Shown here: piece after piece, positions 2,446 through 19,682 of the stretch
Layout: every line of letters starts with the position of its first letter
Numbering within the stretch: position 1 is the stretch's first letter
DNA from: a virus
DNA: 20,124 nucleotides
Direction: 5' to 3' (one strand)
IMG/VR virus record: IMGVR_UViG_3300020141_001036
Coordinates: 1 to 20,124 of that record
Notes under the pieces: model-generated
Databases searched by the model: none
Told to the model about the DNA's origin: nothing
What the model saw: only the letters and a program-made list of their open reading frames with translations
Made by a program: the position numbers and the translations under genes

Positions 2446-2785
2446 AGTATTCAGTGACCTCAAGGATTTTATCAATTTGTTTTTGTATAATGTCTTTACG
2501 ATTAGGCCAATGAATATATTCCTTGTCAGGATTCTTTTGCAAATTGTAAAGAAGGGGAAGGATGAGATTTTCGATTTCTTGCAATTTAGATTTAGCTTCA
2601 ATCTTTAACAATTCCTTATGTTCTTCTACTAGCTTATCAATATCAGTGTTGTTGAACTTTTGTTCAAGCGTGGAAATTTTTGATAACAACTCATCTCGAA
2701 ATTCCACATCACCAGATGCAGGCGTGGGTGAACTAGCTGGTTCATTATCTTCAAACGTGAATCCAAAGTCGAAATTATTTACCAT
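2438..2785 (-). CDS. Small helical protein of unknown function
   Basis: A 115-residue acidic protein that I do not recognise functionally. It resembles a small protein seen near structural or metabolic genes in T4-like cyanophages, though I cannot name a family. Residues 1-25 are low-complexity and rich in Glu, Pro and Ser. From about 27 to 85 it is strongly helical with heptad-like Leu/Ile spacing, consistent with a coiled coil. A motif KNPDKEYIHWPNR lies near residues 86-98. The start ATG at 2785 has SD CAGGA and overlaps the end of the deformylase gene by 11 bases. The stop overlaps the ClpP-like start, so the three genes are probably translationally coupled. No signal peptide or membrane segment is visible. 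Confidence 0.7.
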   Translation of the reverse strand: MVNNFDFGFTFEDNEPASSPTPASGDVEFRDELLSKISTLEQKFNNTDIDKLVEEHKELLKIEAKSKLQEIENLILPLLYNLQKNPDKEYIHWPNRKDIIQKQIDKILEVTEYYD

Positions 2786-3314
2786 ATTTTGTCCTGCGTA
2801 AAAGTTTCTTTTGCTTTTTAGCCATCTTCCCCAAGGTGTACTTCAACTTGAAATTGGATGCATGATAGGTGAAATTGATTCCTTCCATGTGATCATACTC
2901 ATGTAGAATGATCCGAGCAGCAACACCTGAGAATGTTTTAAGCTGTGTTTCACCTTTTTCATTTTGATAGTCAACGGTAACCTTCTCAGGGCGACGGAGA
3001 GTAAGAAAGAATTCGGGAAATGACAGACAGCCTTCTTCCATTGTACTTTCTTCTTTGCTTACACCCACCACAGTGGGGTTGAATATTGCAAATCGTTGGT
3101 CTGCATTTCCAAACACAAACATCCTAACAGGAATTCCAACTTGATTGGCAGACAATCCAAAGCCATTCAATTGCAACATTTTCTTATGCAGTACATCTGT
3201 GAGTTCTTCTGCTTTCTCCACTCCTTCTTTTTCAAAATCAAAAAGAGGGGGCTTGGTTGTCATCACTTGATCAGCAAAATGAATCAATTTTAAATCATCA
3301 ATATTCCAAGTCAT
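2775..3314 (-). CDS. def: Peptide deformylase
   Basis: A 179-residue deformylase that would remove the N-formyl group from new proteins. The three family motifs are present. Motif I is GFGLSANQVG (51-60, Gln58), a variant of GxGxAAxQ. Motif II is EEGCLSFP (93-100, metal ligand Cys96). Motif III is HEYDH (138-142, metal ligands His138 and His142, catalytic Glu139). Phage-encoded deformylases are well known in marine T4-like phages, where they are thought to keep nascent phage or host proteins maturing during infection. A longer start at 3326 (MEDTM) is possible, but the SD GGAGG lies inside that extension and is ideally spaced from the ATG at 3314, so the internal start is chosen. The C-terminus is lysine-rich. 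Confidence 0.93.
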   Translation of the reverse strand: MTWNIDDLKLIHFADQVMTTKPPLFDFEKEGVEKAEELTDVLHKKMLQLNGFGLSANQVGIPVRMFVFGNADQRFAIFNPTVVGVSKEESTMEEGCLSFPEFFLTLRRPEKVTVDYQNEKGETQLKTFSGVAARIILHEYDHMEGINFTYHASNFKLKYTLGKMAKKQKKLLRRTKYGK

Positions 3315-3331
3315 AGTATCCTCCATATTTA

Positions 3332-6111: not shown

Positions 6112-6555
6112 TTAACCTTCAAAGATGGCAGAATTGCTTCCATGTTCAAAACATTCCACCGATTTCAATCGCACACGCCGTTGTGTTTCATCGTGGACTC
6201 GCTGTGAAATGTCTGTGTACACCATTTCTGCAAATCGTTCACACCCGACAGCTGGAAGAATTCGAAGATCACATGTTCCTGCATTTTCCAATTGCTTAAA
6301 CATGTCTAGCTTGGGGTCATCTTCAGACACCGCCAAGGTGTGATCAAAGGTGTGATCAAGATATTCTTTGATCCATTTAGTATTTCCAAAATCATACACC
6401 CAATTTCGATCATCCAGTGTGTCGGCTTCAAAAATGAAACGAAAGCCTAGACTGTAACCATGTAGTAGATTGCAATGTGAATCAGCTCTCCATTGCCGAA
6501 AAGCACAACTCAATCCACGATCATTTCCAAATGTCTTTGTAGAATAGAATTTCAT
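6112..6555 (-). CDS. queD: 6-carboxytetrahydropterin synthase-family protein (QueD/PTPS), variant metal site
   Basis: A 147-residue T-fold protein. QueD converts dihydroneopterin triphosphate to 6-carboxytetrahydropterin, the second step towards preQ0. Family hallmarks are DSHCNLLHGYS (25-35, catalytic-type Cys28), VYDFGNTK (53-60) followed by YLDHTFDHT (65-73), and a C-terminal Glu-rich segment VECFEHGSN (133-141). Canonical QueD binds zinc through one His in an AAH motif and two in HGH. Here the first position reads AFR (Phe19) and HGH is HGY (Tyr34), so two of three ligands seem replaced. Similar variants occur in T4-like phages, so this is a family trait rather than a broken gene. SD AGGT precedes the ATG. 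It lies between the glycosyltransferase and gp47. Confidence 0.82.
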   Translation of the reverse strand: MKFYSTKTFGNDRGLSCAFRQWRADSHCNLLHGYSLGFRFIFEADTLDDRNWVYDFGNTKWIKEYLDHTFDHTLAVSEDDPKLDMFKQLENAGTCDLRILPAVGCERFAEMVYTDISQRVHDETQRRVRLKSVECFEHGSNSAIFEG

Positions 6556-6557
6556 AA

Positions 6558-7589
6558 TTACCTCACAAGATTGCGATACATGATTGTAGGTGTCAAATAC
6601 TGTTGAATTAACACACCACGCTGCGCTTCAAGATCATCATAGTACTCATTGTAATTTACTACTTTGTCATGTATAAAGTCAATGACAAGATGTTTATATT
6701 TCTCGAAATTGTCTAATGAACTTGTCCATTCAGAAGGATATTTAAATTTCTTGGAATACATTTCAGCATAACTACACCTATCAGGAACAATAGGAATAGC
6801 TCCTGCCAAACATCCTTCCATCATGCTAATACCTAAATTCTCATGTAATGCACAACTGAACATTGCTTTGGCAGACCCTAATAAAGAATAATAGTCATCT
6901 TTATTTAAATTCATTTTTTGAGTGATCACCATATCTAACTGTTCAGCAATTGCGGGTTGTTTGTCGGCATTATATCTATGAGGCCAAATCACTACATCTT
7001 TTTTCGGATATGATGCATACTTCAACAACGGTAACACAATGGCTTGATGGGGTTGGCCACTGCGTACTGCCTTGGCATGATGTGTTTCTTCTATTTGCAA
7101 ATTTTTCAAAAACATATTTTTGTGAAATTCAGTTGCAAAATAATTGTAATCACATGCATGAAACCAACTTCTTTCCACATGAGGCGCCCATGAACCAGTC
7201 ATCTTCATCCCAAGAATGTCTGATGGGTCATAATTGCCCGCATGCCAAATGCCATGAATTTCCACAGGAACATCTAACAAATCACTCATGTACCGAATGG
7301 ATGTGATGGCGAAATTCCATGCATCAGTTACTAGAAATTTATCACCTGACTTCACTTCACCATGTTGAAATGCCAGAGCAATGGCTTGAATTTGTGCTGC
7401 CTTGTATGCATTGGTGAATGCAAAATTTAAAAATGCGCCTTGAGTTGTTTGGGTTCCTTCATTGATAAGACCATCAACATTACGAATTGCAACATTCAAC
7501 TTTCGTAAATCTTCTGGAATGTTGTCATACCATTGTTTCGTGTATCGTTGATCAATGGGTTCAATGGGAACTATCCAAACAGTTTTCAT
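6558..7589 (-). CDS. GT-B fold glycosyltransferase (GT4-like)
   Basis: A 343-residue retaining-type glycosyltransferase. The C-terminal nucleotide-sugar half shows the EX7E signature HENLGISMMEG (Glu250 and Glu258), followed by GAIPIVPDRCSYAEM, which is the GT4 pattern. WPHRYNADKQP (202-212) matches the start of the C-terminal Rossmann half. The N-terminal half has the HGIWHAG and FATEFHKNMF segments typical of the acceptor side. The ATG overlaps the stop of the T-fold gene (ATGA), so it is tightly coupled to the deazaguanine genes. The acceptor is unknown: DNA base, protein or host glycan. Its position inside the modification operon makes a modified DNA base a plausible acceptor; this is inference. 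No signal peptide or transmembrane segment is visible, consistent with cytoplasmic action. Confidence 0.83.
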   Translation of the reverse strand: MKTVWIVPIEPIDQRYTKQWYDNIPEDLRKLNVAIRNVDGLINEGTQTTQGAFLNFAFTNAYKAAQIQAIALAFQHGEVKSGDKFLVTDAWNFAITSIRYMSDLLDVPVEIHGIWHAGNYDPSDILGMKMTGSWAPHVERSWFHACDYNYFATEFHKNMFLKNLQIEETHHAKAVRSGQPHQAIVLPLLKYASYPKKDVVIWPHRYNADKQPAIAEQLDMVITQKMNLNKDDYYSLLGSAKAMFSCALHENLGISMMEGCLAGAIPIVPDRCSYAEMYSKKFKYPSEWTSSLDNFEKYKHLVIDFIHDKVVNYNEYYDDLEAQRGVLIQQYLTPTIMYRNLVR

Positions 7590-7963
7590 ATGGTGATGTC
7601 CTCATGGGGATGATATTTCAATACTGCACCATTCTCGCCATCTTCACTTACACTTGCTTCAATATAACGACCAGGATATGCCTTGGAAATGTATCCAATC
7701 AACTGCTCTGCAATCATTTCACAACTCATGTAATCTAGAAAAAATAAATTATCATTGTATAATGATTCCAACTCACGCTTAAACAGGATGAATTCAATGT
7801 CACGGTCATTATGACTCACTGCTACACGAACCCGAAAATGAAAAATATGTCGATGTGGATATCCTAGAAACCGGACTGCCGCCAACTTGGGATCTTCTAA
7901 TGCAGCGGGATATTTGTGAACCCCTTCTCGCTGAAATGTCACTTCAATATATCGTAAGATCAT
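7586..7963 (-). CDS. T-fold (QueD-like) protein with intact histidine triad
   Basis: A 125-residue protein that I do not know by an established name. The pattern GVHKYP (His16), then YPHRHIFHFRV (His37 and His39), and SVSEDGENGA (104-113) resembles the QueD/6-pyruvoyl-tetrahydropterin synthase fold. In that fold three histidines bind zinc, and a C-terminal Glu binds the pterin or purine. The Cys that normally precedes HGH in QueD is absent; Cys81 lies elsewhere in MSCEM. It could be a second pterin enzyme, a base-binding subunit or an accessory factor for the DpdA-like enzyme. Start and stop overlap the neighbours by 1 and 4 bases (TAATG and ATGA), and SD GGAGGAT is strong. Assignment to the fold is by motif only. 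Confidence 0.65.
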   Translation of the reverse strand: MILRYIEVTFQREGVHKYPAALEDPKLAAVRFLGYPHRHIFHFRVRVAVSHNDRDIEFILFKRELESLYNDNLFFLDYMSCEMIAEQLIGYISKAYPGRYIEASVSEDGENGAVLKYHPHEDITI

Positions 7964-9249
7964 TAAAAATCCTCCGGGAGGCTGGATGGTTGGCCATCTT
8001 CAATGGGTGAGCTATCTAAACTGCTGCCAGCATGATGCAACCAGTATTCAAAATCTTCTCGCGTTTTCACATTACGAAAATCATTCATCACACCAAATGT
8101 TTGTTCATCAACAACGCTGTGTGCATGTTCAAAGTTTTGTGATACCTGATCAACATGCCGAATGAAATTCATGGTACTTCCCACAAAGAATGCACTAAAT
8201 GCTTCGATAGGAGGCAGAAATTCGCCGTTGTGAAGGCTTTGATATTTCCGAACAGGTACATTCATTGCTTCTTGGAAAAATTTATCCTCAACAATGTAAT
8301 CAGTAACATGCTTTCGAATGTCAGCATTAATGAACGAGTAATCTTTAAATTTATCAGCAGCAAACTCTCCAGTGGATTCATCTAGATATGCTCTGCCGGG
8401 AGTGATCCATTGACAGTCAGGACCATAATACCGCCCCATTTGAACACCAGAGGTGTGAGTTGTGCTATCATAACTGATTGTGGTGTTGGCATACACTTCA
8501 TGATGTTGAAGCGCAATCACAGGAAGTAATCGTGATACTGATCCCACACCCAGCAAATGGAAATGATGTGTTGTTTTAGATAATGGCAATTGTGTGTAAT
8601 AGAATGCACGCTTACAATCTTCAAGTGTGCCTGTACCCAAGGCAACAGCACCTAATGCCACGCCGCCAATGTGTGAATGAAGTTCTTGAGGAATTTGTTC
8701 CAATGCCAATTCTGTCCATTTCACATAACTATCTAAATCATTGCCTTGAGCAATAAAGAATGGACGGGCATCGGATTTCATGTTAATGAACGTTTCAATC
8801 TGGTCACGAATATTTCGTCCTGATTGTTTAGCACACCATTCGAATTTTTCTCTGTCAAAATATTTGCTAGATGTATCAGACCGTGATGAACGTGATCCCT
8901 TCATTGATACAGGAATCTCATCGAAACTCATGGCACAATCTGAATACATTCCTTGATTGTTGTACACATCTTGCTTCAATTGAGGTGTGATGGTCTTGCC
9001 CAAGGTGATCATTTGTAGACCGCCTGAGTCAGCATAAATTTGTTTCACACCTTTCCCACGATACACACCTTTAAAGAATTCACCAAATTCTTTTTCAATG
9101 AACGCATTATATAGAAAGGAAAATTCGTGATTGTGTTTACCACGAAGTAGAGCCCACATGTCATTCAATCGTTGTGCCGTGGCTCCTTGGTGTGATTCTT
9201 TAAATCTAACTCGGAGAAAGGACAATCCTGATGCAACATATTCAAACAT
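7963..9249 (-). CDS. dpdA: DpdA/tRNA-guanine transglycosylase-like 7-deazaguanine DNA transglycosylase
   Basis: A 428-residue TGT-superfamily TIM barrel. Motifs in order: YADSGGLQ (72-79, catalytic-type Asp74), MSFDEIP (107-113, Asp110), IAQG (166-169), IGGVALG (194-200), HLLGVGS (231-237) and SYDSTTHTSG (259-268, probable nucleophile Asp261). These align with the TGT DSGGFQ, QG, GGLAVG, GVG and nucleophile-Asp motifs. The C-terminal CxCxxC zinc site of bacterial TGT is not visible, which fits the DNA-directed DpdA branch better than tRNA enzymes. DpdA exchanges guanine in DNA for a preformed 7-deazaguanine, protecting phage DNA from restriction. It is encoded with folE, queD and queE, which supports this role. 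SD AGGAG precedes the ATG. A tRNA substrate cannot be excluded from sequence alone. Confidence 0.82.
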   Translation of the reverse strand: MFEYVASGLSFLRVRFKESHQGATAQRLNDMWALLRGKHNHEFSFLYNAFIEKEFGEFFKGVYRGKGVKQIYADSGGLQMITLGKTITPQLKQDVYNNQGMYSDCAMSFDEIPVSMKGSRSSRSDTSSKYFDREKFEWCAKQSGRNIRDQIETFINMKSDARPFFIAQGNDLDSYVKWTELALEQIPQELHSHIGGVALGAVALGTGTLEDCKRAFYYTQLPLSKTTHHFHLLGVGSVSRLLPVIALQHHEVYANTTISYDSTTHTSGVQMGRYYGPDCQWITPGRAYLDESTGEFAADKFKDYSFINADIRKHVTDYIVEDKFFQEAMNVPVRKYQSLHNGEFLPPIEAFSAFFVGSTMNFIRHVDQVSQNFEHAHSVVDEQTFGVMNDFRNVKTREDFEYWLHHAGSSLDSSPIEDGQPSSLPEDF

Positions 9250-9253
9250 GACG

Positions 9254-9757
9254 TTAACTCCTGAAAATTTTTAATAGATGATGAGTCTGGTGTGTGGCAT
9301 CATCTAAAGCATTGTGATATGTGCCTTCACGGGATGTTTCAGGAATAGCAATTACTTCTCGCATTGTGCGATAGCATCTATTTTTCCAAGGACTCCATGG
9401 ACGTTTCATTTCAACTGCCTTGTATGCATTTTCCATGATGACATTATCGAAGTCGGAACCACATGCCCATGTGGGAAGTTGTTGAGTTCCATACCATTTG
9501 GAAAATGCAGTTAACGCATCAATCAATGACAAATTATTTTCACGCAATGATTCCAGGACTTCCTTGGGCTGTTTACTCCACCAACGAACGGTGTCAGCAG
9601 AAATGTCCAACCCATGCGCCTTGCAATCAGCAGCATCCACGGTGCAGTAAAATGTGTCTACAATACCTTCTTCAAGGGTAAATTTTACTGCACCAATGGA
9701 ACAAATTGCTGCATTTGATTCAGTACTCATGGTTTCCAAATCAAGCATCACATTCAT
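9254..9757 (-). CDS. DEDDh 3'-5' exonuclease (RNase T/DUF5051-like)
   Basis: A 167-residue RNase H-fold exonuclease. The acidic motifs are DLET (6-9, Asp6 and Glu8), SDFDN (101-105) and HNALDDA (148-154, His148 plus Asp152/153), together the DEDDh arrangement. The short single-domain form with WWSKQP (59-64) resembles the 3'-5' exoribonucleases of T4-like phages and the Rv2179c-type family. The substrate, RNA or DNA, is not known. A GTG at 9769 would add four residues, but SD AGGTGA overlaps the folE stop and is well spaced from ATG 9757, which is chosen. The gene sits between folE and dpdA, so a link to the modification system is possible but unproven. Confidence 0.87.
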   Translation of the reverse strand: MNVMLDLETMSTESNAAICSIGAVKFTLEEGIVDTFYCTVDAADCKAHGLDISADTVRWWSKQPKEVLESLRENNLSLIDALTAFSKWYGTQQLPTWACGSDFDNVIMENAYKAVEMKRPWSPWKNRCYRTMREVIAIPETSREGTYHNALDDATHQTHHLLKIFRS

Positions 9758-9765
9758 GGTCAATA

Positions 9766-10467
9766 TCACCTAATCAGATGCATGAATTCAGAACGAAGTG
9801 CGGGATCAGCTTTAAAGGCACCACCCAATTTAGAAGTGACTGTTGTGGAATGGGGGTCTTGAACACCACGCGCCTTCACACAGAAATGTTCTGCATCAAT
9901 CACAACAGCAACATCATCAGTTTCCAGAATGAATGCCAGTGCATGATAAATTTGTTCAGCTAGTCTTTCTTGAACTTGTGGACGGCGCGAAAAATATTCC
10001 ACGACACGATTCAGCTTACTTAGTCCAAGAACTTTCTTACGAGGGATATAGGCCACATGCGCCACACCTGAAATGGTCACGAAATGATGCTCACAGCATG
10101 ATGTCACTGTGATGTCACGCTCCAACACCATTTCATCATACCCCATTTTGTTTTCAATGGCAGTACACTTGGGGAACATTGCCGGATCCAATCCCCAAAA
10201 CAATTCATTCACAAACATTTTAGCAACACGCGCAGGACTATCCATGAGACTGTCATCAGTCAAATCCATGCCAAGTGTTGTCATGATCTCAGTGAAGTGC
10301 TTTTCAATCTTCTTCACCTTCTTGTCTGCAAACTCACCTGTGTCATTGAAAGGTGTTTCAACACCCAACTCCACGAGATGCTTATGCACCTTTGCTCCAA
10401 GTTCTGGGTCACATTTACCCAAGGCGTTACGAATGGAGTTTGCGTTATACCGCTGTTGTGCTTTCAT
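9766..10467 (-). CDS. folE: GTP cyclohydrolase I
   Basis: A 233-residue enzyme making dihydroneopterin triphosphate from GTP, the shared entry step to folate and 7-deazaguanine synthesis. The zinc site is complete: TSCCEHHF (122-129, Cys125 and His128) and EHFCVKARG (193-201, Cys196). The family segments GVAHVAYIPRKKVLGLSKL (134-152) and RRPQVQERL are intact, as is the C-terminal HSTTVTSKLGG. The frame is open up to 10530, but that would overlap queE by about 60 bases and lacks an SD. ATG 10467 follows the queE stop by one base with SD GGGAG six bases upstream. Context with queE and the queD-family gene points to 7-deazaguanine rather than folate. Confidence 0.95.
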   Translation of the reverse strand: MKAQQRYNANSIRNALGKCDPELGAKVHKHLVELGVETPFNDTGEFADKKVKKIEKHFTEIMTTLGMDLTDDSLMDSPARVAKMFVNELFWGLDPAMFPKCTAIENKMGYDEMVLERDITVTSCCEHHFVTISGVAHVAYIPRKKVLGLSKLNRVVEYFSRRPQVQERLAEQIYHALAFILETDDVAVVIDAEHFCVKARGVQDPHSTTVTSKLGGAFKADPALRSEFMHLIR

Positions 10468-10468
10468 A

Positions 10469-11374
10469 TTATCTCCCAATGACGTTGCCAAAGACATAAC
10501 AATGATTTCGTGTGGCAACCTTATAACCACGATTCATTGCTTCAATACATAATTCACCAATACCTGCATCTTCCTGGACATCCTTCGTGGCACCCACAGG
10601 CATCACCCAGACAGCAGGCATGTTGTACTTACATAGAAATCTAATCGCATTCACATGATTGTCAAGTTCATTCCAGTTTTCTGTTGTACCATTACATACA
10701 AATTTTAAAATGGATGTGCTATTGGTCAAGGTGTACTCATGGATGTTTTCTGCACTCACTACATGGTTTTCACCAGATACTGTGAACAATTTCGGACTCA
10801 TTGCCCAATGCCAGCGTGTTTTTTCTGTGGACAGGAATGGGAATTCTGAACTAATGAAATTTCGTAGTTCATCAGAAATGGTTTGTGTGGCATTGGTTTC
10901 CACCGTGACAATTGCAGGCGCATTATTTCTTCGATGCAATTCACGAAGAATTTCCATCATCGCCTTTTGCTGCATCATGGGTTCACCACCAGTGAAGCAC
11001 AGCATGATGGGTTGATTGGTTTTCGGATGAATGAATAATCCTTCTGGATTATGTTCGCTTGTATTCGCGGCAATCAACCGATCAGCAATTTCTGCTGGGT
11101 TGGCGTCTTGTGCCAGATGTTTGAAACGCTGTGACCAGGAATATGATGAGTCACACCCAAACTTCCATACAGGAAGATCATTGACACTTTTTACTGAATC
11201 CACATCAAACGTTTGAAATGGCAATTCATATGTGGAGGGATCCGTTGGATTCTTTTGACCAAAGCCATTGCAATTTAAATTGCAACCAAAGAATCGGAAC
11301 CAAACAGAAGGTGTGCCTGCCAATTCAGCTTCACCTTGGAATGAATAGAAAATTTCAGAATATCGAATACGCAT
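10469..11374 (-). CDS. queE: Radical SAM 7-carboxy-7-deazaguanine synthase-like protein (phage QueE)
   Basis: A 301-residue radical SAM protein, longer than typical bacterial QueE (about 210-240). EIFYSFQGEAELAGTPSVW is the QueE N-terminal signature. QueE normally carries CxxxCxxC. Here GCNLNCNGFG gives Cys31 and Cys35, the third position is Phe38, and a Cys appears after an insertion of about 35 residues in FGCDSSYSW (Cys74), which matches the usual WCDTxYSW context. So the cluster motif seems split by an insertion, as in other phage QueE-like proteins. LCFTGGEPMMQQ and TVETNAT are the SAM- and substrate-binding strands. QueE contracts 6-carboxytetrahydropterin to carboxydeazaguanine. SD GAGGTGA precedes the ATG. 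It is the first gene of the operon behind the 11401-11428 promoter. Confidence 0.88.
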   Translation of the reverse strand: MRIRYSEIFYSFQGEAELAGTPSVWFRFFGCNLNCNGFGQKNPTDPSTYELPFQTFDVDSVKSVNDLPVWKFGCDSSYSWSQRFKHLAQDANPAEIADRLIAANTSEHNPEGLFIHPKTNQPIMLCFTGGEPMMQQKAMMEILRELHRRNNAPAIVTVETNATQTISDELRNFISSEFPFLSTEKTRWHWAMSPKLFTVSGENHVVSAENIHEYTLTNSTSILKFVCNGTTENWNELDNHVNAIRFLCKYNMPAVWVMPVGATKDVQEDAGIGELCIEAMNRGYKVATRNHCYVFGNVIGR

Positions 11375-15253: not shown

Positions 15254-16555
15254 TTACAGAAGGTTTGTAACCTTCATGCGACGATAGTAGTGGTTGATAT
15301 TTGATGTGAATGTATCTTGGTCTGCAGCACCTGTTTGTAGACCGTTCGTTGTTACGAATGGATTTGACACCATGCCGTAACGTGTCTTGAATCCAATCTT
15401 CGGCTGGAATGAAGAAGGATCAATTGCACGAACCATTTGGAGCGGGATGTATGGGCAGTAGAAGATACCTGCGTCATATGCTGATGTGCCCTTGTATCCA
15501 ACTACTACGAATTGTGAAGCAGAATTGATGTTGGCTGAATACGGGTCAATGAACACCTTGAAGCGACCATTCAACGTTCCTGCAAATGTGTTGCCTGTGT
15601 CATCCATCGAGATGGCATCATTGCCTTGTAATCCTGTGCCGTAATCCAACTTGCCAGTCATGGCAAGAGCAGCTGCAACGTCTGATGAACAGACGATGAA
15701 ATTACCACGGCCGCGACGAGTTTGCTGCGCGATAACGTTGGCGTCACGTTCAATCTGGAACATAAGTCCCTTGAAACGTTCCACTGACCAACGACCATTT
15801 GAATCAACGTCCAAGTCGAACGTTCCTGGTGTTGCTGTTGAAGCAGCACCTGGCTTGGCAACCTTGTAGATGGTACGAATCACTTCACGATTCATTTCAG
15901 CAAGAATTTCTTGTGAAAGAATGTTTGACAATTCGCTTTCAGCATCAAGACCATGAATTGCCTTCAAGTCTTGTGCCAATTCCACTGTGTATTCCGCCTT
16001 CAAAGCACGTGTTCTGGCTGTTACTGTGGTCTTCTCAATTGAGAAAGCCATTTGACCAAAATCACCTGCGCCGCCGCCTGTACCAAGAGCTTCACCATCG
16101 GCAGTGGTTAATCCTGTGCCGCGTGTGTATGATCCGTCAACTGGGTTTGATCCAGTTTGTGAACCTGTGCCTGAGAAGGAGGTGTCAGCTTCGTTGAATA
16201 ACGCTTCTGTGCCTGCTTGTGTAGTGAAATTCGACTTCATGGCGAAGATCAAGCCTGTTGGGCCCGTCATGGGCTGCACACCAGCTACGTCATACGCCAT
16301 CAAGTTTGGAAGTGAACGACGAACCAAAGAAATAAGAATTGGATCGTAACGATCAATATCTGTAGCGCCTGAACCTGCAATGTTGTTGGCAGGAACGGCT
16401 TCGAAAAGAGAAGCCTTTTCTTCACGAAGGGCGCGTTCTTGGTTTTCAAGAACTACCGCTGTGACTGCACGCTTGTAGTTGTCCTTGATGGAAGGCATTG
16501 ATTCATGGTCAAGAACCGGCGCCCACTTCTTTTGTAGATTTTCTGATAAAAACAT
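15254..16555 (-). CDS. 23: Major capsid protein gp23
   Basis: A 433-residue HK97-fold major capsid protein of the T4 type (T4 gp23 is 521, so this is a shorter form as in environmental relatives). Signature blocks include LVRRSLPNLMAYDVAGVQPM (77-96) and GPTGLIFAMKS, the internal EYTVELAQDLKAIHGLDAESEL, and the C-terminal DPSSFQPKIGFKTRYGMVSNP. Residues 50-53 (LFE before Ala53) match the L/I-x-E cleavage pattern of the gp21 protease, giving a probable mature N-terminus at Ala53 (T4: Ala66). A Gly/Thr/Ser-rich stretch at about 120-165 lies where the E-loop/insertion region would be. The ATG has SD AGGAG. It is expressed from an exact late box and ends just before a strong terminator. Confidence 0.97.
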   Translation of the reverse strand: MFLSENLQKKWAPVLDHESMPSIKDNYKRAVTAVVLENQERALREEKASLFEAVPANNIAGSGATDIDRYDPILISLVRRSLPNLMAYDVAGVQPMTGPTGLIFAMKSNFTTQAGTEALFNEADTSFSGTGSQTGSNPVDGSYTRGTGLTTADGEALGTGGGAGDFGQMAFSIEKTTVTARTRALKAEYTVELAQDLKAIHGLDAESELSNILSQEILAEMNREVIRTIYKVAKPGAASTATPGTFDLDVDSNGRWSVERFKGLMFQIERDANVIAQQTRRGRGNFIVCSSDVAAALAMTGKLDYGTGLQGNDAISMDDTGNTFAGTLNGRFKVFIDPYSANINSASQFVVVGYKGTSAYDAGIFYCPYIPLQMVRAIDPSSFQPKIGFKTRYGMVSNPFVTTNGLQTGAADQDTFTSNINHYYRRMKVTNLL

Positions 16556-16620: not shown

Positions 16621-17844
16621 CTATTTTCCAAACGTATTACGAGACAACAATTCAGCATATTTTTGTACTGAACCTGAAACTTCTTCAGTGATGGTATCTT
16701 CTTCTGTCAATGAAGCTGCTACTGAATTGCCACTCTTTGGGAAGTAGTTGTTCTTGATGACTGAGAGCTTTTGTTCAAAAATTTCTTCGTTGTCGAATTC
16801 AACTGCTTCAACCAACCCACGAAGTTTTTCAGCTTCAGTGTTTGCTAAATCTGATGTGACCTTGTTGAATACCACATCGCGCTTTGATTCAATCAAGGCG
16901 GTGTTTAATTCAACTGCTTCAGAAATTGTTTCATTCAATTTAGCAGTGAGTTCTTCAATTTGTGCTTGCATTTCGCCAAGAACATCATACTTTTCTTCTG
17001 GGACTTCAATGTAATGTTCCTTGAACAACACCTTCAATCCGGAAATGAAATCTTCTGTTACTTCAGCGCGTAAGCCTTCAACAATGGCAACTTGATTCTG
17101 TTCCATCCAATGTTCGGCAACATATGAAAGATATGAATCAACTTTTTCCACCAATGCGTTTTCTATTTCAGCAATGGTGTCAACAGCCGCTTCAGCAAGC
17201 ACATCTTCCATTTGTTCAACTTCATGTGCCACACGTGCAATCACAACGGCTTCAAACAATGATGCTGCTTTGTTCTTGAAATCTTCTGACAGATCAGCTT
17301 CTGATGCAAAAAGATTTTCCACATCATGTGCCAATTCTTCCTTCATTTTCTTCATCATGGCTTTTTTCTTGGCAGACATCTTGGATTCCTTTTCATCTTC
17401 TTCCTTTTCATCTTCCTTGTCATCTTCCATTTCATCTTCTTCTGTTAAATCAAGAGCTTCATATTCTGCCTTTTCTTCGTCAGAAAGAGCATTGTATTCT
17501 TCTTCGGTGATGAAATCTTCGTTGCTCACTTCTTCTTGTTCATTGTGAACATTGCCCTTGGAAGTGGCTTGATTCACCACTGATGAAGGATCCGCAACAG
17601 TTGTGAAGTTGGGAGCAGCTCCAGCACCCTGTGCAGTTGGCACGGGTTGCTTCTTGGCTTTGGCAGATTGTGTCTTGCCCTGTGAGGCTTCATCATCTTG
17701 AGTTGCAATTGTGGCATCTTCTGATGACCCTTGCTTTGCTGGTGCTGCTTCTTTAGCTCCTGCACCTGGCTTCAACATATTGGAAGAATGAGCTTCTTCC
17801 AATTTGTGAGACATCATTTCTCTAATCTTGTTTTCTACGGACAT
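16621..17844 (-). CDS. 22: Prohead scaffolding core protein gp22
   Basis: A 407-residue scaffold protein between gp21 and gp23, the universal T4 order (T4 gp22 is 269). It has no predicted globular domain. Residues 1-100 are Ala/Gln/Lys-rich and low in complexity. Residues 105-153 are extremely acidic (runs of Glu/Asp). Residues 155-170 are basic. The rest is a long amphipathic helix region. SLFEA at 195-199 fits the gp21 cleavage pattern and is nearly the same as the site in gp23, consistent with the scaffold being digested during maturation. Residues 78-98 carry a motif shared with the 19682 gene (see findings). SD AGGAG precedes the ATG, and an exact late box lies 39 bases upstream. Confidence 0.92.
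   Translation of the reverse strand: MSVENKIREMMSHKLEEAHSSNMLKPGAGAKEAAPAKQGSSEDATIATQDDEASQGKTQSAKAKKQPVPTAQGAGAAPNFTTVADPSSVVNQATSKGNVHNEQEEVSNEDFITEEEYNALSDEEKAEYEALDLTEEDEMEDDKEDEKEEDEKESKMSAKKKAMMKKMKEELAHDVENLFASEADLSEDFKNKAASLFEAVVIARVAHEVEQMEDVLAEAAVDTIAEIENALVEKVDSYLSYVAEHWMEQNQVAIVEGLRAEVTEDFISGLKVLFKEHYIEVPEEKYDVLGEMQAQIEELTAKLNETISEAVELNTALIESKRDVVFNKVTSDLANTEAEKLRGLVEAVEFDNEEIFEQKLSVIKNNYFPKSGNSVAASLTEEDTITEEVSGSVQKYAELLSRNTFGK
17551..17613 (-). repeat. Shared 21-residue motif, copy in gp22
   Basis: Encodes PNFTTVADP, two variable residues, then VVNQATSKGN (gp22 residues 78-98). It matches the segment at 19449-19511 in 14 of 21 residues, mostly through different codons. Confidence 0.8.
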
Positions 17845-17882
17845 TGAGTATCTCCTAATTTGTCGTTACAAATTCGTATTAT

Positions 17883-17890
17883 TATTTATA
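17883..17890 (-). promoter_or_regulatory. T4-type late promoter for gp22
   Basis: Exact TATAAATA on the minus strand, just past the gp21 stop and about 39 bases before the gp22 ATG. It should drive gp22 and read through to gp23. Confidence 0.88.
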
Positions 17891-17894
17891 TGAA

Positions 17895-18548
17895 TTACTT
17901 CTTTGAAATGCTGTGCAAGAAGTTTTCAAACACACGCAATTTCACTTCTTCGAGCTGTTTAACCTTGGTTTGTTCCATAATCTTCTTGGTTTCATCAATG
18001 TGTTGATAGGTCCATGACCCATTAAGAAACATCCATTCTCTGTTTTCCATGATACCTTGTACAAACGCATCTGGTGCTGAAGGATCAGCAACAATATCAG
18101 CAGCTGTTGCCAGATAGAAATCATCTTGAACTTCATTGATTCCGTCATTGTTTATTTTCAATGACCCCATACCCCGTGATGATACACCGAGTTTTGCTCC
18201 GCCATCAATTAAATTCTTCACAATGTTACCCATGGGGGTATTCATAATTTTTGCACGACCAACGAAATTGTTTCCGTTTTCTTTCAATGATGTGATCATG
18301 TGTGAAACACGATCCAGATTGATGGTGGGTCCTTCGGGGTGTCCCAATTCTCCGAATGCTCTTCCTGCCTGCACATATTCCTTCATGTATCGTGAAACTT
18401 CACGCTCCATGATGTTCTTGGGATAAATACGTCCATTTCTATTCTTCATTTCAGATTGCAAGAAAATCCCTTCGATATACAACTCTTTGTTGGTTCCTTC
18501 TGTGATGTATTGCACATCTTCAACAATTTCAGCAATGAGTTTCATCAT
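17895..18548 (-). CDS. 21: Prohead core protease gp21
   Basis: A 217-residue serine protease (T4 gp21 is 212) that digests the scaffold and trims gp23 and other head proteins. Recognisable blocks are MKNRNGRIYPKNIM (34-47), FGELGHPEGPTINLDRVSH (65-83, catalytic-type His70), and GGAKLGVSSRGMGSL (116-130, catalytic Ser at 123 or 124). The C-terminal half PSAPDAFVQGIMENREWM is typical of the gp21 family. The gene begins with tandem ATGs (18548 and 18545) behind SD GGAG; either could be used, and the second has the better spacing. It overlaps the preceding stop. Cleavage sites LFE before Ala in gp22 and gp23 match its T4 specificity. Confidence 0.94.
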   Translation of the reverse strand: MMKLIAEIVEDVQYITEGTNKELYIEGIFLQSEMKNRNGRIYPKNIMEREVSRYMKEYVQAGRAFGELGHPEGPTINLDRVSHMITSLKENGNNFVGRAKIMNTPMGNIVKNLIDGGAKLGVSSRGMGSLKINNDGINEVQDDFYLATAADIVADPSAPDAFVQGIMENREWMFLNGSWTYQHIDETKKIMEQTKVKQLEEVKLRVFENFLHSISKK

Positions 18549-18922
18549 GGTTCTCCATCTGATGGATTTCTGTGTTGTGTGTTACCATATCCAGACACCT
18601 TCAGCAATTCAAGAATTACTGTGCCACCTTCAGCAGGAATGGTCACCACGATATCATATGTGTTCAATGTGTTGTCACTGAATCCATTGAATTGATGGCT
18701 GTATGCCCCTACTAAAGGCCATTGAGTAACGTTGTTTCTTTTTATAGTTGCTCCAGTGGTTCCTGGTACTGCCCAATGAATGGCAGAAATGTTTACTGTG
18801 GGTGTTGCTGCTGTTTGATTTGTGTGTAACAAATCCGTTGCCAATGCAATTGTTTGTGCACCAACACCCGTGACTTTAACAACAGCATGAATAGGTGTAT
18901 TTTTTAAAACGACGAGTGCCAT
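18545..18922 (-). CDS. Small beta-rich virion-type protein, function unknown
   Basis: A 125-residue protein directly before gp21. I recognise the type, small beta-rich proteins in the head cluster of marine T4-like phages, but no assigned function. It is rich in Thr, Val and Asn with alternating hydrophobics, consistent with an all-beta fold. Blocks include HAVVKVTGVGAQTIALATDL (12-31), NTYDIVVTIPAEGGTVILEL and a C-terminal SGYGNTQHRNPSDGEP. There is no signal peptide, membrane segment or catalytic motif. A head decoration or small outer capsid role would fit position and composition, as inference. SD GAGGA precedes the ATG. Confidence 0.72.
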   Translation of the reverse strand: MALVVLKNTPIHAVVKVTGVGAQTIALATDLLHTNQTAATPTVNISAIHWAVPGTTGATIKRNNVTQWPLVGAYSHQFNGFSDNTLNTYDIVVTIPAEGGTVILELLKVSGYGNTQHRNPSDGEP

Positions 18923-18938
18923 TTATATATCCTCTTGT

Positions 18939-19682
18939 TTACTTTTTCTTTTTATATACAGAAACTGCTATAACCGTGCCTTTACCTTTTTCTACACCCT
19001 TCTTTGTGAAGCCTTCAGGAGGACGAAAGAATTGTTTGGCATTGGATACACGTGGCAATCCATTTCTTTTAGTACCCTGAACACCTCGTTCAGTATTTCT
19101 ATATGGAGTGAGATTGGATTCACTCATTTGTGATTGCATGTATTGGGCAGCCGTGACAATATAATCTTCTGCCAACGTTATTTTTGATTGCACCCATTCA
19201 GGTAAATTGGTGTCATCTTCCAGCATATCATGAAGCATTTTGGCATTATACACAATACTGCGAAGTTGACTTTTTGCCATGTCCCCTTCATAATCATATT
19301 CTCCTTGATCTTCTTCCTTTGCCTCGCCCATGGCAACAGATGCAACTGCACCTGATAAATCTTCAACACCATATCTCATGGACTTCACACGAATTGTTTT
19401 GAACGGTTTTCCTGTCTTTCGTGTAGCCGTTTGCAATGTCACATCTCGGTTACCTTCCGATGCCGGTTGATTGATCACATCTTCAGGTTTGGCAACTGTG
19501 GTGAAATTTGGTACATCTGGTATATCACTGGTGTGAGGCCCGTCATCTTCAGGAATATCTCCAATAGCATCCTTCACTAGATTGTCCATATCCATTTGTT
19601 TATACTTAGGATATTCAACAGAAGATCCTTGAGTTGGATAATGACTTTCTACAATGTTTCTGATATCTTTAAATGTTTTCAC
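18939..19682 (-). CDS. Prohead-region protein of unknown function sharing a motif with gp22
   Basis: A 247-residue protein that I do not recognise. A GTG start at 19682 is proposed: it follows the previous stop by one base and has SD GGAG six bases upstream, whereas the ATGs at 19739 and 19715 have no SD and would overlap the upstream gene. The N-terminus then reads MKTFKDIRNIVE, a common phage style. Residues 40-55 are acidic. Residues 58-78 hold the motif shared with gp22 (PNFTTVA..P..V.NQ..S.GN). Residues 140-215 look helical, and the C-terminus is basic and Lys-rich. Position between the head genes and gp21 suggests a core or internal head protein; this is inference. Confidence 0.7.
   Translation of the reverse strand: MKTFKDIRNIVESHYPTQGSSVEYPKYKQMDMDNLVKDAIGDIPEDDGPHTSDIPDVPNFTTVAKPEDVINQPASEGNRDVTLQTATRKTGKPFKTIRVKSMRYGVEDLSGAVASVAMGEAKEEDQGEYDYEGDMAKSQLRSIVYNAKMLHDMLEDDTNLPEWVQSKITLAEDYIVTAAQYMQSQMSESNLTPYRNTERGVQGTKRNGLPRVSNAKQFFRPPEGFTKKGVEKGKGTVIAVSVYKKKK
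19449..19511 (-). repeat. Shared 21-residue motif, copy in the 19682 gene
   Basis: Encodes PNFTTVAKP, two variable residues, then VINQPASEGN (residues 58-78 of the GTG-started protein). It is the partner of the copy at 17551-17613. The first seven residues are identical in protein, yet five of the seven codons differ at the third base. Confidence 0.8.

Follow-up and report, generated by a model that had tools for sequence, protein, structure and literature searches.

The prohead scaffold protein gp22 of a set of uncultured T4-like phages and a second protein encoded among the same head genes, here called X, share, as comparison of their sequences and homologues shows, a bipartite element larger than first described, in which the residues QGSS are followed about 40 residues later by a 21-residue motif. 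X very probably belongs inside the prohead core, and the shared element may well dock both proteins at one site while the core is being assembled.

The window, by which we mean the whole stretch of DNA analysed, is an IMG/VR record of 20,124 bases from a T4-like phage. Its head genes lie on the minus strand in the order X, a 125-aa protein, gp21, gp22, gp23, tail tube protein, and UvsY. X itself (18939-19682; 247 aa, candidate prohead-core protein) starts at a GTG at 19682, and the 125-aa protein between X and gp21 (18545-18922) had no family match. gp21 (17895-18548) is the prohead protease of the Peptidase_S77 family (Pfam PF03420, E = 4.8e-41), and gp23 (15254-16555) is the major capsid protein (PF07068, E = 3.1e-136). 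The scaffold gene gp22 (16621-17844) encodes 407 aa (PF25623, E = 1.7e-60; PHROG 237, E = 2.9e-66; AF2 model), made up of a disordered N-terminal extension of about residues 1-166 and a T4_CASP core at residues 172-388; this PF25623 domain and the position of the gene between gp21 and gp23 identify it as a T4-type scaffold.

The two motif copies lie on the minus strand at gp22 residues 78-98 (PNFTTVADPSSVVNQATSKGN; 17551-17613) and at X residues 58-78, counted from the GTG at 19682 (PNFTTVAKPEDVINQPASEGN; 19449-19511). When the alignment was recomputed, 14 of the 21 residues were identical, as the initial annotation had claimed, and its count of synonymous differences at five of the first seven codons also held. 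Synonymous codon differences were found at 8 of the 14 shared residues overall, and the DNA identity of the two copies is 40/63. Pairwise BLASTP of gp22 against X returned E = 1e-6 for the motif segment and nothing else significant, and the local alignment score of the two proteins, 94, compares with a maximum of 73 in 2000 full shuffles and of 81 in 2000 window shuffles.

The two proteins had been described as looking unrelated elsewhere, but their local alignment begins upstream of the motif, at QGSS, and is gap-free through to the motif. QGSS occupies gp22 residues 38-41 (17722-17733, minus strand) and X residues 18-21 (19620-19631, minus strand), in each case 40 residues before the motif. 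Nearly all gp22 homologues have it: its distance upstream of the motif is 40-49 residues in almost every gp22 extension, where QGSS often occurs twice. In X, all 14 proteins that bear the motif and include the upstream part have it at a distance of 40 or 42 residues. QGSS was counted 107 times in gp22. Among ORFs of 90 aa or more unrelated to gp22 and X it turned up once, where composition predicts about 5 occurrences over the whole set. The gene concerned (L109; 115 aa from its ATG) itself occupies the X slot before gp21 and has a start resembling the capsid-targeting sequence (CTS) of T4. Because QGSS matches in both proteins and was found only once elsewhere, we regard the shared feature as bipartite.

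Codon comparison places both motif copies under purifying selection relative to the linkers. Motif pN/pS was 0.24 in gp22 and 0.32 in X, and in the 32 codons just upstream it was 0.83 and 0.61, respectively; these values are approximate: they are proportions, synonymous sites are close to saturated, the linkers were aligned ungapped, and the motif sets were picked out by a pattern. They agree with the earlier proposal that it is the peptide, not the DNA, that is conserved, and near-saturation at synonymous sites led us to reject DNA-level conservation or recent gene conversion. Mean information was 3.51 bits over gp22 residues 77-99, 1.99 over the rest of the extension, and 2.70 over the core, the motif being at least as conserved as the folded gp22 core (conservation figures for the gp22 set from our IMG/VR motif scan are biased upward, the set having been picked by part of the motif). 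AF2 gave pLDDT below 50 for gp22 residues 79-109, which predicts disorder, and this combination of high conservation and low predicted order is typical of a short linear interaction motif. The initial annotation had placed both copies in disordered regions; the AF2 result bears this out for gp22, whereas for X the poor whole model (mean pLDDT 53.7) establishes no disorder. A Foldseek search with that low-confidence model gave no usable match. The residues KPED and GNR, which are specific to X, recur in most X motif copies.

Scanning IMG/VR with the motif alignment yielded 110 stretches encoding a relative. A profile built from the motif matched gp22 N-terminal extensions and X, and no other of the proteins searched. 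Of the 8512 ORFs in the related loci, the carriers were gp22 and X, together with a few unclassified ORFs that are truncated or split gp22. The motif occurred at most twice per contig in 19 whole contigs, and exactly twice in a related contig of 178 kb; no third carrier was found in the 8512 ORFs or the 19 contigs. INPHARED yielded no match to the motif in sequenced isolates at E values up to 10. The motif is kept in homologues of both gp22 and X, whereas the initial annotation would have taken a lack of conservation in either family as a sign of accidental resemblance. Among loci found via the whole of X or gp22, 27 gp22 proteins with the N-terminus of this clade carry the motif and in four contigs (L022, L023, L052, and L058) it has decayed, three cyanophage-type proteins caught by the same gp22 filter having been set aside. 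The gp22 motif is thus not essential in every lineage.

Counted by hand per contig after merging loci of one contig, the motif was present in both proteins in about 10 contigs, in gp22 only in about 18, in neither in 4, and in X only in none. This distribution is consistent with dependence on gp22, though statistically not decisive. Three loci that had appeared to be X-only (L044, L105, and L155) are one contig in which gp22 is split over two frames, and they were excluded from the count. Separate frames for the gp22 extension and core were seen in L127 (4459-5738; Pelagibacter phage HTVC008M) and L044 (4634-5970); sequencing error, insertion, or frameshifting are possible causes. Another unusual gp22, of about 1000 aa, is encoded in L019 (6631-9630), with a very large insertion between extension and scaffold core.

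In trees of gp21 and of gp22, motif-bearing X proteins fall on deep branches, and the X copy is therefore old and has been kept; its distribution suggests that it is probably ancestral and has been lost repeatedly. Many relatives have the motif in gp22 and an X without the whole module, and even the near-identical genomes L012 and L024 differ in whether X has it, so that the X copy is dispensable. The idea that the motif might serve to package internal proteins in general does not fit this pattern, in which many relatives carry it in gp22 only and the X copy behaves as an addition that can be lost.

The assignment of X to the prohead core follows from its N-terminus and its gene slot before gp21. 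Read from the GTG at 19682, X begins with VKTFKDIRNIVE followed by S, and GGAG lies upstream at 19692-19689. Homologues have an ATG at the equivalent place (L005, MKHFKELRE; L014, MKSFRDIRTISE), and with the upstream GGAG this is why GTG 19682 is preferred to the less likely, longer start at ATG 19739. The N-terminus, V(M)KTFKDIRNIVE (19647-19682, minus strand), fits the pattern MKT[FY]..[FI] followed by an [LI]xE site, with cleavage by gp21 predicted after E12, before S. In T4 (NC_000866), ipII and ipIII start MKTYQEFIAE, cut before A, and ipI starts MKTFKEF. We searched about 1 Mb of related loci for CTS-like starts, defined as a start codon then K[TSNHQ][FY][KRQE][DEQTN][FILM], and 19 of the 21 distinct N-termini recovered belong to the slot upstream of gp21, lying 743-1836 bases before gp21 where the locus includes that gene. 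Some motif-bearing X proteins (L010 and L012 among them) have a different N-terminus and no CTS-like start. Outside the X slot, L036 (at 9086) and L061 (at 8144) encode another protein family whose start is CTS-like (MKTFKEFLSEEAPANSVG...), a candidate internal head protein.

X had no match in Pfam or PHROG, and its mature part showed no homology to a described internal protein family; we have not filed it as an IP homologue. Its helical module (about residues 127-189, EYDYEGDMAK...LPEWVQSKITLAEDYI; 19116-19304, minus strand) is common to many T4-like phages and is also found in cyanophage S-WAM2, behind a start reading MKTFKQLREE. Genes in the X slot are mosaic, gaining and losing modules and even changing their order. 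In several of them (including L010, L012, L014, L019, and L109) modules recur and are often joined by [LI]xE linkers resembling VELDE or QIDE, and such genes give the impression of encoding polyproteins for gp21 to cut. The version in L019 (4908-5522) is permuted, with the helical module first and the QGSS and motif module second.

In T4, the CTS directs internal proteins to the core, gp21 cuts after L/I-X-E, and internal proteins co-purify with gp22 (PMC9026906). The CTS is not shared with other T4 core proteins, how these are localised to the core has remained mysterious, and the structure of the core is unresolved (PMC9958956). X resembles T4 IPII and IPIII in having a short, very similar N-terminus of the core-directing type with a predicted gp21 cut. 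The T4 CTS, however, is N-terminal, whereas the motif of X and gp22 is found inside the protein, in X downstream of the CTS-like part, and occurs in the scaffold itself as well. The C-terminal part of gp22 is a clear member of the T4 gp22 family (T4_CASP, PF25623), but in this clade, unlike in T4, gp22 is extended at its N-terminus by about 170 disordered residues, which contain QGSS and the motif. The gp22 of cyanophages of the P-SSM2 type likewise has a conserved short motif, EDLGGPTPENYRPDDDSAKL, in a scaffold N-terminal extension; its sequence is different, and each genome has it at a single place, which in annotated records is gp22. It is strongly conserved in L126 (4620-5720; P-SSM2 gp22) and about 120 phage records. 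A search for an analogous duplication in P-SSM2, HTVC008M, and Melnitz found one copy in each. CTS-type targeting and gp22 are already known; a limited literature search found no different, internal element common to a scaffold and a CTS-bearing protein.

From these observations we infer a docking role for the shared element, a reading that has about an even chance of being right. X would be a minor internal protein of the T4-like prohead core, and residues 1-12 would act like the T4 capsid-targeting sequence and be removed by gp21. Behind them X bears QGSS-(about 40)-NFTTVAxPxxV[VI]NQxxSxGN, homologous to the element of the gp22 extension. The two copies would recognise one type of site, which could belong to a partner common to both (portal, protease, or the inner face of the capsid) or to the core, and X would thereby be co-incorporated with the scaffold during core assembly. 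We suggest more tentatively that the element could constitute a second core-targeting code apart from the CTS, with a mosaic core protein copying the bipartite element of the scaffold and so recruiting changing cargo modules. A peptide common to scaffold and core protein offers a testable handle on the placement of T4 core proteins, might serve as a cargo tag in phage heads, and gives reason to assign the widespread, unannotated mosaic genes upstream of gp21 to the prohead core.

It is also conceivable, but rather unlikely, that gp21 cuts out the gp22 extension as a large peptide retained in the mature head, where it would act on packaged DNA, the capsid wall, or the next host, with X as a second source of the peptide. 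Applying the [LI]xE rule carried over from T4, we found sites in gp22 at 17 and 114 and none between, so that, if gp21 follows this rule, residues 18-114 (17503-17793, minus strand) would be released as a single peptide of about 97 aa. In 46 distinct gp22 extensions there was 1 [LI]xE site and 9.5 were expected by shuffling, and the remainder of gp22 had 860 sites and 431 expected, a contrast that may be partly due to the coiled-coil composition of the core. An [LI]xE site was absent from all 59 gp22 motifs, and the median predicted fragment was 126 aa. Because gp21-type sites avoid the motif region, the motif peptide may persist uncut in mature heads, and the mature T4 head does keep some gp22 product along with internal proteins (PMC9026906). 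Apart from the borrowed cleavage rule and the composition of the core, what argues against this reading is that the motif has no obvious DNA-binding character.

The identical type of element in gp22 and X, and the repetition of QGSS in many gp22 extensions, would also fit a self-binding element, through which gp22 N-termini associate with one another and X, having its own copy, is brought in. In T4, gp22 outnumbers every other core protein (PMC9958956), but AF2 shows the region as unstructured in the gp22 monomer, and we think it unlikely that the element works in this way. Improbable too is that the X copy lacks a function and is left over from a duplication that carried the gp22 extension into a gene prone to rapid shuffling: the mosaic X genes, with modules gained, lost, and permuted to the point of the reversed order in L019, give this reading some appeal, but the copy persists on deep branches at a pN/pS of 0.32 with synonymous sites near saturation, and KPED and GNR recur across most X copies. 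Chance or compositional likeness of two disordered regions, for which one could cite the low-complexity setting of both copies and the predicted disorder of that in gp22, is ruled out for practical purposes by the shuffles, the conservation in both families, and the second matching element, QGSS.

Elsewhere in the window, a minus-strand gene group at 6112-11374 is possibly a 7-deazaguanine DNA modification set. It includes GTP cyclohydrolase I (9766-10530), a protein of the 6-pyruvoyl-tetrahydropterin-synthase family (6112-6555), a protein that looks QueE-like and has a 4Fe-4S match (10469-11374), and a 428-aa protein (7963-9249) that, by reading only and without a Pfam match, resembles a tRNA-guanine transglycosylase/DpdA relative. 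The phage also encodes a Clp-protease-like protein and a peptide deformylase (1825-2601 and 2775-3326, both on the minus strand).
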